In this document: positions 18,169-22,809 of the stretch, one piece after another | Layout: each line of letters opens with the position of its first letter | Position numbering within the stretch: the first letter of the stretch is position 1 | Origin: Novosphingobium sp. IK01 | GTDB taxonomy: Bacteria > Pseudomonadota > Alphaproteobacteria > Sphingomonadales > Sphingomonadaceae | Direction of reading: 5' to 3' | Assembly: GCF_033242265.1 (NCBI RefSeq) | Contig: NZ_BTFW01000001.1 | Span: 62,001 to 126,000 of the forward strand | DNA: 64,000 bases | The notes under the pieces: model-generated | Databases searched by the model: none | Told to the model about the DNA's origin: nothing | Seen by the model: the letters and a program-made list of their open reading frames with translations, nothing else | Made by a program: the position numbers and the translations under genes

Positions 18169-18243
18169 TGGTGGGCGTAGCAAGGATTGAACTTGCGACC
18201 CCTACGATGTCAACATAGTGCTCTACCACTGAGCTATACGCCC
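18169..18243 (-). tRNA. tRNA-Val (anticodon GAC)
   Basis: Read on the minus strand this gives a complete cloverleaf: acceptor GGGCGTA / TACGCCC, D arm GCTC-AGTGGTA-GAGC, anticodon arm CTATG-TTGACAT-CGTAG with GAC in the loop, and T arm GCAAG-TTCAATC-CTTGC. The discriminator is A and the CCA end is encoded (18169-18171). It decodes GUC and GUU. A terminator follows, so it is a single-gene unit. Confidence 0.97.
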
Positions 18244-18336: not shown

Positions 18337-18699
18337 TTAGGCCGCGTTCGCAAAAATGCGATCCACCTCCATCACGAGGTCGCGCAAGTGGAACGGCTTG
18401 GACAGCACGCGGGCCTGGGGTGCCTCGCGATTGGCCTTGAGCGTGACCGCAGCAAAGCCGGTGATGAACATGACCTTGGTGGCCGGGCTGATTTCGCTGC
18501 AACGCTGGGCCAGCTCGATTCCGTCCATTTCGGGCATGACGATGTCCGAGAGCAGCAGATCGAAATGTTCGCGTTCGAGCAGCGGCACGGCCGCCGTGCC
18601 GCGATCCACCGCCACGACGCCGTATCCGGCGTTCTCCAGTGCGCGGGAAAGATAGGTGCGCATGGCCTCTTCGTCTTCGGCGAGCAGGATACGGATCAT
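18337..18699 (-). CDS. cpdR: Cell-cycle response regulator CpdR
   Basis: A stand-alone receiver domain of 120 residues. In alphaproteobacteria, unphosphorylated CpdR targets ClpXP and triggers proteolysis of cell-cycle regulators, and CckA-ChpT phosphorylates it. The phosphoacceptor Asp52 lies in LLLSDIVMPEMDGIEL, and Lys101 in VLSKPFHLRDLV. The whole sequence follows Caulobacter CpdR closely (MFITGFAAVTL), rather than a generic CheY. No output domain is present. It is divergent from the N-formylglutamate amidohydrolase gene, with which it shares a ~200-bp upstream region. Its kinase cckA is in the same window. Confidence 0.92.
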   Translation of the reverse strand: MIRILLAEDEEAMRTYLSRALENAGYGVVAVDRGTAAVPLLEREHFDLLLSDIVMPEMDGIELAQRCSEISPATKVMFITGFAAVTLKANREAPQARVLSKPFHLRDLVMEVDRIFANAA

Positions 18700-18895
18700 G
18701 ATGCCCTTCTGATTGATATATCGTGTTGTCCGGCATTGCCGCTGGTCCGGCGCATGCCTGCCTGGCAGCTTTCGCTGTCAGGACACCGTGATAACGCCGG
18801 GCGGGTTAACAATCTTAGGTCTTTGGGCCTTTGCGTGACGGTATATCGAAGTGCGCGGTTTTGACAGGGGGCGCGAAGCGTTGCAGCCATGGAAG

Positions 18896-19954
18896 ATGGC
18901 AATTCATGATTCCCCGGATGGACGCGCGGCCCCGACTGATTCGTCCGACATGGCCTGGTCTGTTTCGGAAGGGGGGCGCATTCCCGGCAGTGACGGGGTC
19001 CCGGCCTTTGTCTGGCGTCGGAAGTGTCTGGGGCAGCGTCTGGAGCAGCACTCGGCGCCGATCCCGCTGATCATTGCGGTGCCCCATGCCGGGCGGCACT
19101 ATCCTGCCGGGCTGCTGGCCGCGATGCGCCAGCCCGAACTGGCGGCGCGGCGGCTGGAGGATCGTCTGGTCGATCTGATCGGACTGGAAGTGGCGCGGGC
19201 CACGGGGGCCACCTTGCTGGTGGCGCAGGCGCCGCGCGCGATGATCGATCTCAACCGCGCGCCCGACGATATCGACCGCGAGATGATCGTGCCTGACCCG
19301 ACGGTGCCGGTGGGGCGCCTGATGCCGCGCCGTGGTGGGGCGGGGGGCGGCATCGGGGGCAGGGCGCAGGGCGGGCTGGGGCTGGTGCCGCGCCGTCTGG
19401 CGGGGCTGGGCGAGGTTTGGCGTGGGCGCCTGCCGGCCGTCGAGCTTCAGGCGCGAATCGAGGATGTCCACGTGCCCTATCATGCGGCGCTGGCGGACGA
19501 GCATGTCGCCGTGGCGCGCGACTGGGGGGCGGCGCTGCTGCTGGACCTTCATTCGATGCCGCCTTTGCCGGTCCGGGCTGACGGCGAGCCGGGCGGTACG
19601 TTCGTGCTGGGAGATCGCTTCGGGGCTTCGTGCGCGACGCGGCTTTCGGGGGCGGCCTTTGCGCATCTGGCTTCGTGCGGGGTGCGGGTGGCGCACAACC
19701 GGCCTTATGCGGGGGGTTATGGGCTCGAACGGCATGGGCGCCGCGATTCGGGGCTTCATGCGATGCAGCTTGAAATCGACCGCAGCCTCTATCTCGATGC
19801 GGCGCTGGCCGAGCCGGGCGAGGGGATGGCTGGTGTGATCGAAATCGTGAGCGGTCTGGTGCGGCGTCTGGCCGGGGAAGTGGCGGCGCTGGGGCAGGTG
19901 GCCAGCGGGCGTGGCGCGCAGACGAATCAGGGATGGTCGCGCGCGGCAGAATGA
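18896..19954 (+). CDS. N-formylglutamate amidohydrolase family protein
   Basis: A probable zinc-dependent amidohydrolase. Recognisable family blocks are IAVPHAGRHYP, RAMIDLNRAPDDIDREM, LLLDLHSMPPLP and HNRPYAGGYGLERHG, with the conserved His and Asp residues in place. The start is unsure: ATG at 18896 gives 352 residues, GTG at 18851 or ATG at 18950 are also possible, and homology begins only near IPLIIAVPHAG. HutG itself acts in histidine degradation, but no hut genes are adjacent, so the true substrate may be different. A gene of this family beside cpdR is a recurrent alphaproteobacterial arrangement. Confidence 0.85.
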   Translation: MAIHDSPDGRAAPTDSSDMAWSVSEGGRIPGSDGVPAFVWRRKCLGQRLEQHSAPIPLIIAVPHAGRHYPAGLLAAMRQPELAARRLEDRLVDLIGLEVARATGATLLVAQAPRAMIDLNRAPDDIDREMIVPDPTVPVGRLMPRRGGAGGGIGGRAQGGLGLVPRRLAGLGEVWRGRLPAVELQARIEDVHVPYHAALADEHVAVARDWGAALLLDLHSMPPLPVRADGEPGGTFVLGDRFGASCATRLSGAAFAHLASCGVRVAHNRPYAGGYGLERHGRRDSGLHAMQLEIDRSLYLDAALAEPGEGMAGVIEIVSGLVRRLAGEVAALGQVASGRGAQTNQGWSRAAE

Positions 19955-19973
19955 GGGCGAAAAATGAGGGCAG

Positions 19974-20079
19974 AAAAAAACCACCTGGAGGCTAGCTCCA
20001 GGTGGCCAAGGTTCAGGGAGGAGGTGCACCGAAGTGCACCAATCGGATCGAGCCATGAGGGGAGCGCCGATCCGATGTG
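19974..20079 (-). ncRNA. Candidate small RNA, CCUCCUCCC-motif (Cuckoo/CcsR-like)
   Basis: A minus-strand transcript of about 100 nt is predicted. Its 5' end follows a promoter at 20083-20111. In order it has: a perfect 9-bp stem ATCGGATCG / CGATCCGAT (20068-20076 with 20042-20050); a 7-bp hairpin GGTGCAC-TTCG-GTGCACC with a UUCG tetraloop (20023-20040); the motif CCTCCTCCC (20016-20024) and a short unpaired stretch; and a 10-bp terminator hairpin (19981-20005) followed by seven T (19974-19980). No open frame with homology is present. The CCUCCUCCC motif, able to pair with ribosome-binding sites, is the hallmark of Cuckoo/CcsR RNAs known from Rhodobacter and rhizobia. Membership in that family is inferred; standalone transcription is well supported by the promoter and terminator. 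Confidence 0.7.
19981..20005 (-). terminator. Terminator of the candidate sRNA
   Basis: A 10-bp perfect stem, CCACCTGGAG / CTCCAGGTGG, with a 5-nt loop and seven T residues on the minus strand (19974-19980). Confidence 0.9.
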
Positions 20080-20082
20080 ATG

Positions 20083-20111
20083 AAGATAGGCAACACTCGC
20101 GCACATTGCAA
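20083..20111 (-). promoter_or_regulatory. Promoter of the candidate sRNA
   Basis: On the minus strand TTGCAA (-35, 20106-20111), a 17-nt spacer, and TATCTT (-10, 20083-20088). The predicted start falls at about 20076-20079, exactly at the first stem. Confidence 0.6.
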
Positions 20112-20356
20112 GAGGTGGCCTGAAGAAAATTATTGCATTTTCTGTGAATATTTGTTTCCTCAGCGCCCCTTTCCTGAATGGGGCGTAAACCATGCGTTCA
20201 GGCAGGGGGAGGAGGTCGCGCCGCAGGAGTGTATCGGGCCATTGGCTGACCGGCATGGCGGCGGTGGGCTCTGAACGTTTCAGGGCCGTGACGGATCCCG
20301 CGCGGCGGGTGAAAAACGGAAAAAAATGTGGCGGGCGCGGGATGGCCCATCAAAAA
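20112..20356. other. Rest of the sRNA-sapC gap
   Basis: No credible gene. It holds a second minus-strand CCTCCTCCC (20207-20215) and a 6-bp hairpin CGCCCC/GGGGCG (20164-20185) 22 nt further on, without a T tract. An AT-rich stretch lies at 20125-20160. Confidence 0.5.
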
Positions 20357-20384
20357 AGCCCCCTTCCGTTGCCGGAAGGAGGCT
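20357..20384 (-). terminator. Terminator of the SapC-family gene
   Basis: Stem AGCCTCCTTCCG / CGGAAGGGGGCT with one mismatch and a 4-nt loop, followed on the minus strand by a run of T. Confidence 0.85.
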
Positions 20385-20411
20385 CCTTTTTCAGTCGGTT
20401 GCGGCCTGCGC

Positions 20412-21191
20412 TCAGAGCGCGGGCACCGCCGGGACGGCAGCCGGCGCCTTGCCCTGCTGGGCCTGCATGCCGAAAATCGCGCTCATCAGGTCGAGCGAGA
20501 AGATGTGGGCATAGACCAGCGGGAGAAGGCCGCTCTGGGCCCAGCCGCGCAGCACGTCGCCGCGGATTTCGCGCAGCTTTTCCTGATTGACCATCTGGAA
20601 GCCGCGATAGACGAACGGCTGTTCGACGCCCGGCTGCTGGATGGCGACTTCGCCTTCCATGAGCAGGTTGTGCTTCTTGAGTTCGTCGACGAAAGCCTGC
20701 GTGCGCTGGCCGGCCTGCTCGAACTGTTCGCAGAACTGGAGCGCCTGCTTGGTGGCTTCGCTGGGCTCGCCATCGGTGAACAGGGCTTCGCCTTCCTCGA
20801 ATTCGCCGACCAGGCCGCTGGCGGGATCGAAGCACAGCGACAGGTCATCGCTCTGCGGGGTGAGCTTGGCGAGCATGAACGGATAGCGGCGCGCATAGGC
20901 GGGCAGGTAGATCGGCTGGTCGATCCGGCCTTCCTCGTTCACGAAGACGTTCACGCCTTCGTTGAGGCCCATCAGCGCGAGCGGAACGGGGTTGTCGCCC
21001 GAGGCGAAGATGATCGGGAAATGGCGGGCGGCCTGCGGAAATTCTTCGACCGTGAGGGGAATCGCATGCTGGCCGATCAGCCAGGGCGCCGTCTGGGCCC
21101 CGCGCACGCGCCACGTGGCGTGGTCGCGGGTGTTGAGCGGCATGAGATCCTTGTAGAACAGGGGCAGGTTGGCTTGCGGCGCGCTGGCCAT
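20412..21191 (-). CDS. SapC family protein
   Basis: A 259-residue protein of the SapC family, common in sphingomonads and Caulobacter relatives. Typical patterns are LPLFYKDLMPLNTRDHATWRV, FPIIFASGDNPVPLALMGL and PIYLPAYARRYPFMLA. In other genomes such genes lie near TonB receptors or halogenases; here it is single. The name comes from an S-layer protein secretion gene of Campylobacter, but the function in this group is not known. There is no signal peptide. The gene ends in a strong terminator next to the sRNA gap. Confidence 0.85.
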   Translation of the reverse strand: MASAPQANLPLFYKDLMPLNTRDHATWRVRGAQTAPWLIGQHAIPLTVEEFPQAARHFPIIFASGDNPVPLALMGLNEGVNVFVNEEGRIDQPIYLPAYARRYPFMLAKLTPQSDDLSLCFDPASGLVGEFEEGEALFTDGEPSEATKQALQFCEQFEQAGQRTQAFVDELKKHNLLMEGEVAIQQPGVEQPFVYRGFQMVNQEKLREIRGDVLRGWAQSGLLPLVYAHIFSLDLMSAIFGMQAQQGKAPAAVPAVPAL

Positions 21192-21366
21192 GTATTCTCT
21201 CCGAAAACGTTTGCGACGCCCGGCGCGCCGCGTTCGACATCGAACGCAACACGGGCGTAAAACCCGGCATAAGCGGTGCGCGGGAGGGTGACAAGCGCAG
21301 CGCTGTGCGAGTTCACGTCTTTATCGGGCCCGGATGGGGCCGGGCCGGGCGGGCCCGGCCGGTGTT

Positions 21367-22809
21367 TCAGACCAGCTTGCCCGGATTCATCAGGCCAAGC
21401 GGATCGAGCGCATGCTTGACCGCGCGCAGGATCGCGAGGGCGGCCGGATCGCCCAATCGGTCGAGTTCGTCGCGCTTGAGCTGGCCGATCCCGTGCTCGG
21501 CGGAAATCGAGCCGCCCCAGGCTGTTACCATGTCGTGGACCTGACGGCTGATCGCCTTGCCGTCGCCCGCTTCCCAGCTCGCGCGGTCGGCGCCGGGCGG
21601 GGCGATGACGTGGAAATGGATGTTGCCATCGCCCAGATGGCCAAAGCAGATCGCCTGCGTGCCGGGCCATTGCGTCTCGAACAGGGGCACGGCCTCCTCG
21701 ACGAAGGCGGGCATCTTTTCCACCGGCACGCTGATGTCGTGCTGCATGGCCGGGCCGATCGCGCGTTCGGCGGGCGAGATGGTTTCGCGCAGGGTCCAGA
21801 AGGCTTCGGCCTGGGTTTCGTTGGGGGCCATCGTCGCATCGGCGATCAGCCCGGTCTCGAAGGCCTCTTCGAGCAGGCGCTGGGCGAGGTCGGGCAGGCG
21901 CTCGGCGCCGTCGGCATCGGCGACCAGCTCGATCAGCACATGCCAGGCATGATCCTGTTCGAGCGGTGCGCGGGCGCCGGGCAGATAGGCGCGCACGGCA
22001 TCGAGGCTGTGCTGGGGCATGACCTCGAAGCCTTCGAGGGCAGGGCCGGTCAGGCGCTGCGCCAGCAAAAGCAGTTCGCGGGCCTTGAACAGGTCTTCGG
22101 TGCCCGCCCAGAGCACTTCGCGCGCGGCGATGGCCGGTTCGAGCTTGAGCGTGGCGGCTGTCACGATCCCCATCGTGCCTTCCGAGCCGATCAGCACCTG
22201 CTTGAGGTCGAAGCCGCGATTGTCCTTCTTGAGGGGGACGAGCTGGTCGAACACCTGCCCGTCGGGCAGGACCGCCTCAAGACCGAGCACGAGCGCGCGC
22301 ATCGAGCCATGGCGCAGGACTTGCGTGCCCCCGGCATTGGTGGAGATCAGCCCGCCCACCGTGGCCGAACCCTTGCCGCCCAGCGAGAGCGGAAAGCGCA
22401 GGCCCCTGGCGGCGGCGGCTTCGTGCAGGACCTGGAGGATCACCCCGGCTTCGCAGGTCGCGCTGCGGGTGGCGGTGTCGACCGCGCGGATGGCGTTCAT
22501 CCGGCGCAGCGACAGGATGATCGCGTGGCCGCTCTCGTCGGGCGTGGCCCCGCCCGACATGCCGCTGTTGCCGCCCTGGGGCACGATGGGAATGTGGTGG
22601 GCCGCGCACAGGCGCACGAGGGCGGCAACTTCCCCGGTATTGGCCGGCGCGGCCAGGGCAAGGGCCCGGCCCGTGAACCGGCCGCGCCAGTCGGTCAGCC
22701 AGGGGGCGACCGTTTCGGGATCGGTGATGAAGCCCTTGGGGCCCAGCAGGGCGGCGGCGGCTTCGAGAAAGGCGGCGCCATCGGCGCCCTGTGCAAGCGT
22801 TTCGACCAT
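21367..22809 (-). CDS. FAD-linked oxidase (D-2-hydroxyacid dehydrogenase type)
   Basis: A 480-residue flavoprotein of the GlcD/D-lactate dehydrogenase family. An N-terminal PCMH-type FAD domain carries PQGGNSGMSGGA (77-88) and LGGKGSATVGGLISTNAGG. The C-terminal cap carries GHLGDGNIHFHV, SAEHGIGQLKRDEL and DPLGLMNPGK. It probably oxidises a D-2-hydroxyacid such as D-2-hydroxyglutarate or D-lactate; the sequence resembles the D-2-hydroxyglutarate type, but the substrate is not proven. It is a single gene downstream of which sapC follows on the same strand after about 175 bp. Confidence 0.85.
   Translation of the reverse strand: MVETLAQGADGAAFLEAAAALLGPKGFITDPETVAPWLTDWRGRFTGRALALAAPANTGEVAALVRLCAAHHIPIVPQGGNSGMSGGATPDESGHAIILSLRRMNAIRAVDTATRSATCEAGVILQVLHEAAAARGLRFPLSLGGKGSATVGGLISTNAGGTQVLRHGSMRALVLGLEAVLPDGQVFDQLVPLKKDNRGFDLKQVLIGSEGTMGIVTAATLKLEPAIAAREVLWAGTEDLFKARELLLLAQRLTGPALEGFEVMPQHSLDAVRAYLPGARAPLEQDHAWHVLIELVADADGAERLPDLAQRLLEEAFETGLIADATMAPNETQAEAFWTLRETISPAERAIGPAMQHDISVPVEKMPAFVEEAVPLFETQWPGTQAICFGHLGDGNIHFHVIAPPGADRASWEAGDGKAISRQVHDMVTAWGGSISAEHGIGQLKRDELDRLGDPAALAILRAVKHALDPLGLMNPGKLV

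Follow-up and report, generated by a model that had tools for sequence, protein, structure and literature searches.

The 64,000-nucleotide stretch of DNA analysed here (the window) carries on its minus strand a gene that very likely encodes a trans-acting Sphingomonadaceae form of the small RNA αR8, at the usual locus of that RNA family, beside a gene of the N-formylglutamate amidohydrolase family (FGase). That the locus is a real small regulatory RNA (sRNA) gene, kept through much of the Sphingomonadaceae, is almost certain, and we regard the sRNA as probably orthologous to αR8 by locus and as strongly diverged from its relatives MmgR and SisA. It is named an αR8 ortholog by locus and core, not a member of Rfam suhB, since its score lies below the cut-off of 41 bits. 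The case for an sRNA rests on comparison, since the 9-mer motif CCTCCTCCC is unremarkable, a simple sigma-70 scan of positions 19000-21500 returned no promoter, and Rfam at gathering thresholds reported one tRNA and nothing else in the whole window.

Structure and conservation of the sRNA gene

Table 1. Features of the sRNA locus and its surroundings, in window coordinates
Feature	Positions	Strand	Basis
tRNA-Val (GAC), beyond cpdR	18169..18243	-	Rfam/tRNA scan
cpdR, cell-cycle response regulator	18337..18699	-	NCBIfam NF046022, 197.7 bits (cut-off 180); Pfam Response_reg
FGase, N-formylglutamate amidohydrolase-family gene, convergent	18851..19954	+	Pfam PF05013, 208 bits; start codon provisional
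Predicted sRNA transcript, ~105 nt	19974..20078	-	promoter-to-terminator extent and orthologs
Intrinsic terminator, 12-pair stem (two G-U) and seven T	19974..20007	-	terminator scan
Unpaired anti-Shine-Dalgarno linker UCCUCCCUGAACCUU, αR8-like core	20008..20022	-	fold and alignment
CCUCCUCCC, first two bases paired inside hairpin 2	20016..20024	-	sequence and fold
Hairpin 2, GGUGCAC-UUCG-GUGCACC	20023..20040	-	RNA fold
Hairpin 1, 10+3 bp around bulge	20042..20076	-	RNA fold
Loop 1, CCCCUCAU	20055..20062	-	RNA fold
Promoter-like CTTGCA-N16-CCTATCT (= TTGCAA-N17-TATCTT)	20083..20112	-	sequence
Hairpin and T-run behind sapC, probable own terminator of sapC	20350..20387	-	by eye; not listed by terminator scan
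sapC-family gene, upstream, same strand	20412..21191	-	Pfam PF07277, 238 bits

An earlier note on this DNA had proposed a standalone sRNA gene next to sapC, and this is borne out: the predicted fold beats its shuffles and the locus is kept across the genus. When positions 20080-19972 were folded as RNA, three hairpins were obtained at -52.1 kcal/mol (z = -7.0), and none of 200 shuffled sequences folded as well. Most parts of the gene are as the note described them, including the exact motif CCTCCTCCC at 20024-20016, the UUCG hairpin (hairpin 2 in Table 1) and the seven T, found at 19980-19974, 3' of the terminator stem. The anti-Shine-Dalgarno stretch is unpaired in the predicted fold. Two sizes were corrected: the first stem-loop, given as 9 bp, is present but measures 10+3 bp with a bulge, and the terminator stem, given as 10 bp, has 12 pairs including two G-U. 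The transcript region stops 19 bases before the stop codon of the convergent gene and overlaps mechanical ORFs only, which agrees with the statement that it runs antisense to nothing coding.

A DNA search recovered the element in its own genome and in 23 of 24 genomes of the same genus; 16 genomes from other genera gave no hit in this search. For the analysis of covariation an alignment of 25 Novosphingobium loci was used, two of which stem from a single genome that is 75% complete (G017). The alignment check for compensatory changes in the three stems, which the note had named, came out in its favour: the stems covary across these loci. With the structure set beforehand, 92.6% of the cells that make up the three stems are paired, a value reached by 0 of 500 shuffles; the same holds for the 76 double-changed cells in the stems and for the stem covariation score. 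Of 31 pairs, 13 have both partners changed in one sequence or more, and 3 of 500 shuffles reach this number. The 38 pair types counted are unremarkable, being reached by 132 of 500 shuffles. Pairing falls to 36-47% when the partners are slid out of place. Hairpin 2 and the terminator are paired in 100% of cells, with changes on both sides in 3 of 7 and 2 of 12 pairs respectively; hairpin 1, some rows of which lack the bulge and are hence out of register, is paired in 81% of cells, with changes on both sides in 8 of 12 pairs. An automatic consensus fold kept just the 3-bp top of hairpin 1.

Within the order the covariance model R1, built solely from the 25 Novosphingobium loci, has matches at E 0.01 in 213 of 296 genomes, spread over 62 of 79 genera; the remaining 83 genomes give none at that threshold. 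From the genomes with a match 35 loci of 28 other genera of the family were picked (hereafter family loci), all 35 of which thus match R1 by choice. The sequence CTCCCTGAACCTTGGCCACC was found in at least 120 stretches of named genomes, and the matches listed include Novosphingobium, Sphingomonas, Sphingobium, Erythrobacter, Qipengyuania and Rhizorhabdus. One record with CTCCCTGAACCTTGGCCACC (L309) is labelled Actinobacteria and is perhaps a mislabelled bin.

The 9-mer CCTCCTCCC by itself is weak evidence. It occurs three times in the window against 1.07 expected, a number reached by 6 of 100 shuffles, and it is exact in 20 of 25 Novosphingobium loci and 5 of the 35 family loci. The conserved unit is CCUCCCUGAACCU and not the 9-mer that the earlier note had put forward: both CCUCCCUGAACCU and CCTCCCTGAACCT are present in 25/25 genus and 29/35 family loci, and CCTCCCTGAACCTTG is invariant across the 25 aligned loci while the stems vary. 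Folded as single sequences, 19 of the 25 loci leave the core wholly unpaired (counted by eye). The CCUCAU of loop 1, present in 24/25 genus and 15/35 family loci, is open in 22 of the 25 folds, its last base being paired in some. Another copy of CCTCCTCCC lies at 20207-20215 (-), between sapC and the sRNA and outside the transcript, where chance is a plausible explanation.

Relationship to αR8 and to other sRNA families

The best Rfam family for the locus is RF00519 (suhB/MmgR), with 36.0 bits and E 8e-6 in a search of a 521-base stretch, under the cut-off of 41 bits. Out of 12 family-type loci searched with RF00519, six reach E 0.05 and none exceeds the cut-off (L001 was not listed, and L124 matched ar14 instead, with 32.8 bits against a cut-off of 58.8), whereas 3 of 3 canonical αR8 loci do. 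The window copy was absent among the 29 RF00519 matches in its own genome, for which 150 of 326 first-look candidates were scored. In the reverse direction R1 was tried on nine canonical αR8 loci of other families and finds all of them (L052, L041, L040, L027, L031, L030, L047, L053 and L028), overlapping the Rfam positions, with 38.8 to 25.6 bits and E-values of 5e-7 to 6e-4.

The locus and αR8 have the core UCCUCCCUGAAC in common, and a canonical core such as UUUCCUCCCUGAACUUGGGCCAC aligns without gaps to the window core CCUCCUCCCUGAACCUUGGCCAC. The 10-nt UUUCCUCCCU of αR8 is described as single-stranded and situated below a hairpin, and in most species a single αR8 copy is said to lie next to a gene for N-formylglutamate amidohydrolase (PMC12559287; this and the other papers given by PMC number are cited from excerpts). 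Eight of these ten letters recur in the window, among them an exact and unpaired UCCUCCCU; this is preceded by a paired CC, where the αR8 10-mer has UU. With αR8 (SisA-D of Caulobacter, MmgR of Sinorhizobium, RF00519) the Sphingomonadaceae form shares a hairpin, the unpaired UCCUCCCU(G/A)AAC linker, the terminator, the FGase neighbour and a cpdR gene that is often near. It differs in the CC at the start of the 10-mer, a longer hairpin 2, a 5' hairpin with a C-rich loop, the sapC neighbour and its score below the Rfam cut-off. Some outgroups (L028, L030, L036 and L052) also have a 5' hairpin containing a C-rich stretch, as judged from folds or by eye, so this hairpin may predate the family. A phylogeny of αR8, cited in PMC12559287, was reportedly presented by Lagares in 2016 and may already include sphingomonad copies. 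Excerpts of the literature on sphingomonad suhB/MmgR/SisA-type RNAs held no treatment of the RNA of this locus, and those of two papers on Zymomonas sRNAs (PMC6970203, PMC7064620) held nothing on the locus.

Among the neighbours FGase is a strong synteny link, and cpdR and tRNA-Val are supporting ones. A convergent FGase is found at 24 of 25 genus loci, the remaining one (L024) being at a contig end, and at 33 of 35 family loci; SapC is encoded upstream on the same strand at 25/25 and 33/35, and both genes occur together at 31/35 family loci. At canonical αR8 loci FGase is present in 25 of 29 across the class (the best-scoring ones, one with only 25% identity) and in 10 of 14 from other families of the order, with no FGase match at four loci of either set. 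Against the HutG equivalog the window FGase scores 81.5 bits, far below the cut-off of 278.75. A CpdR-like response regulator (at least 50% identity) lies at 32/35 family loci and at 5/14 order and 7/29 class canonical loci, the canonical counts being lower bounds as about 3 kb per locus were covered. Of eight family-type loci scanned, several of them chosen for a tRNA already seen, six carry tRNA-Val(GAC); of the other two, L147 has tRNA-Glu and L001 ends short. Of the order's canonical loci ten were scanned, and tRNA-Val(GAC) was detected in three (L040, L042 and L052). These three have no cpdR match, and the order's canonical loci with cpdR have no tRNA within about 3 kb; none of the canonical loci covered combines cpdR with tRNA-Val. 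In L133 and L147, both of genus g41, the sRNA stands beside sapC with no FGase or cpdR match, and with its tRNA-Glu nearby the L147 block seems rearranged.

Other sRNA families with anti-Shine-Dalgarno sequences were weighed against αR8. We give a small chance to an AbcR-like (αr15) RNA, which would repress transporter mRNAs. AbcR1/2 are described with three stem-loops, two unpaired C/U-rich anti-Shine-Dalgarno stretches and partial homology to suhB, and lie between SMc01226 and lsrB (PMC7143759). The three hairpins and two unpaired C-rich stretches of our sRNA fit this architecture, but its surroundings are cpdR, FGase and sapC instead of the lsrB locus, and no ar15 match was listed in 19900-20420, in a listing that would mask an overlapping, weaker match from the same clan.

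The earlier note had read the RNA as a member or analogue of the Cuckoo/CcsR family, and we take the rhizobial RNAs with loop-borne motifs to belong to Cuckoo. In these, three or four hairpin loops each carry CCUCCUCCC (PMC3927594), and in αr14 the motif is likewise found in hairpin loops (PMC7143759). CcsR1-4 are processed from a transcript shared with ccaF1, a DUF1127 gene, and are transcribed under the alternative sigma factors RpoE, RpoHI and RpoHII (PMC8307010). A sphingomonad member of Cuckoo/CcsR or of αr14 (NfeR1), turning CCUCCUCCC loops against ribosome-binding sites, has in its favour the anti-Shine-Dalgarno CCUCCUCCC itself, the three hairpins that αr14 also has, weak ar14 matches (22.5 bits with E 0.038 here, and that of L124), and the RpoH-like promoter seen in other genera, which recalls the sigma factors of CcsR1-4. 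The ar14 score is nevertheless far under the cut-off of 58.8 bits and Rfam prefers suhB; the locus is that of αR8; and the exact 9-mer is kept in just 20/25 genus and 5/35 family loci. Cuckoo/CcsR and αr14 carry the motif repeatedly and in loops, and CcsR is cotranscribed with ccaF1, whereas the transcript studied here holds one copy of CCUCCUCCC, as the note itself had observed, placed in the linker. Its remark that the gene is not downstream of DUF1127 is also sustained, the genome giving no match to PF06568 at E 0.01 among 86 candidates scored. Because the motif is single and in the linker and the genome is without a DUF1127 match, the sRNA is not filed under Cuckoo, membership in which has at best a slim chance. 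By analogy it would act in a manner similar to Cuckoo RNAs.

Promoter and independence from sapC

The promoter sequence claimed on the minus strand is present, with TTGCAA at 20111-20106, a 17-nt spacer and TATCTT at 20088-20083. Its description as vegetative-type is uncertain, the promoter being RpoH-like in other genera and ambiguous for Novosphingobium. In other genera of the family it mostly reads CTTGAA-N15/16-CC(T/C)ATNT. One promoter scan leans toward the consensus that it scores, and a plainer pattern was used for the counts: at the same distance this pattern occurs in 33 of 41 family loci (0.32 in shuffles), CTTGAA being present in 26 of these. In the genus it occurs in 15 of 35 loci (0.57 in shuffles), one of them with CTTGAA. 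The fifth base of the Novosphingobium -35 is C in 25 of 35 loci. Heat-shock genes of the genus were inspected alongside. The groES promoters (CTTGACG...CCCATAT) carry an inverted repeat, presumably CIRCE, and are for that reason not a clean RpoH standard. Hsp20 was taken as RpoH-dependent; CTTGAA, and not the CTTGCA of the window sRNA, was found in 14 of 16 Hsp20 loci inspected, with CATATCT, CATACAT or CACACAT downstream, and the strict pattern with an RpoH-like -10 in 8 of 30. In Sinorhizobium RpoH1 recognizes CTTGAA-N15-16-CCTATAT, to which the promoter of the other genera comes close, and RpoH2 CTTGCC-N15-16-CCTATCT, and Sphingomonadales have rpoH1 only (PMC4843759); RpoD promoters of the class can look similar, one RpoD example beginning with CTTGCA (PMC6180224). 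From promoter sequence we lean to an RpoH-type promoter in other genera, and consider the sigma factor in Novosphingobium ambiguous between RpoH and RpoD.

That the sRNA is a processed 3' fragment or read-through tail of the sapC mRNA is the least probable of the alternatives, and very improbable, since the usual position of sapC upstream on the same strand (25/25 genus and 33/35 family loci) is set against a separate hairpin with T-run at 20387-20350 (by eye, not listed by the terminator scan), the fixed-distance promoter pattern (33/41 family loci with 0.32 expected, 15/35 genus loci with 0.57 expected) and SapC matches within about 3 kb in 0 of 43 canonical αR8 loci outside the family. A sub-threshold ctRNA_p42d match (22.9 bits, cut-off 50) at 20352-20387 (-) coincides with the probable sapC terminator.

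Possible mode of action and meaning

SisA represses mRNAs through the 10-mer UUUCCUCCCU, which covers the ribosome-binding site upstream of start codons; it depends on Hfq, and the sponge CrfA counteracts it (PMC12559287). MmgR limits PHB granules (PMC7143759). A SisA-like action fits the sRNA since its linker is unpaired and invariant, and by this analogy it is probably an Hfq-assisted anti-Shine-Dalgarno repressor that covers ribosome-binding sites. The RNA would be transcribed from its own promoter and end at its own terminator, as its sequence suggests, and would be held by Hfq with the linker UCCUCCCUGAACCUU predicted to stay single-stranded. The linker would then pair with GGAGG-type ribosome-binding sites of several mRNAs, leading as in SisA to a block of translation or to mRNA decay. 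In its loop the 5' hairpin may expose another C-rich stretch, which reads CCCUCAUGG in Novosphingobium and often CCCCCCUUU elsewhere, as a likely second site for targets or for contact with Hfq. The RNA would be expected to repress genes for uptake, the outer membrane and carbon storage in line with the state of nutrients or stress.

A target search with AAGGTTCAGGGAGG at up to 3 mismatches gave 200 matches, not many above the 154 of the reversed control, and no target was found. A CrfA-like sponge with a near-exact complement was rejected, as AAGGTTCAGGGAGG at 0-1 mismatches matched the gene itself only; a sponge with a shorter complement may exist. Bipartite pairing, in which the two C-rich stretches would bind a single mRNA at its ribosome-binding site and start codon (CAUGAGGG), found no support: GGAGGN{3,12}ATGAGGG has six matches in five places of the genome (reversed control 0), and the four of six read by eye revealed no convincing gene start. 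At one bipartite match, C1:4453, the opposite strand looks coding.

The genome also has four RF00519 matches over the cut-off, at C1:2555278, 802676, 1181952 and 2886509 (L054, L057-L059), which have GCCUUUCAGGCAUCCUCUCCCAAA in common and form a different group from the window sRNA. None of the four loci has an FGase match, and similar loci exist elsewhere in the genus, e.g. L032, L033 and L037. Upstream of these sibling RNAs CGCA(C/T)TTGC occurs in 4/4 and TTGC-N7-GCAA in 3/4, and the shared boxes suggest that the siblings are under one regulator. SuhB of Sphingopyxis granuli TFA binds the thnR 5' UTR and lowers thnR translation with Hfq (PMC6563040). It shares with our sRNA the Rfam family name and a sphingomonad host, and differs in its length of 61 nt, the comparison resting on its published description. 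This SuhB could be the counterpart of the multi-copy suhB group of the present genome.

A tentative, rather doubtful extension is that αR8 was rebuilt in the Sphingomonadaceae as a two-seed RNA (the second, C-rich seed lying in the 5' hairpin and being CCCUCAUGG in Novosphingobium and often CCCCCCUUU elsewhere), and that an RpoH-type promoter in most other genera would shift it from control by nutrients to the response to heat and envelope stress, with the multi-copy suhB RNAs keeping the older role. αR8 is a central post-transcriptional regulator in Caulobacter and is linked to PHB storage in Sinorhizobium. What is known is thus the αR8 kind, and what is new is its diverged Sphingomonadaceae form below the annotation threshold. 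In this family, known for the breakdown of pollutants, the copy at the αR8 locus sits under the Rfam threshold; its recognition provides a named, testable regulator for many genera and corrects a tempting assignment to Cuckoo. As an experiment of nature, the locus could show how an sRNA may acquire a second seed and switch to another sigma factor.
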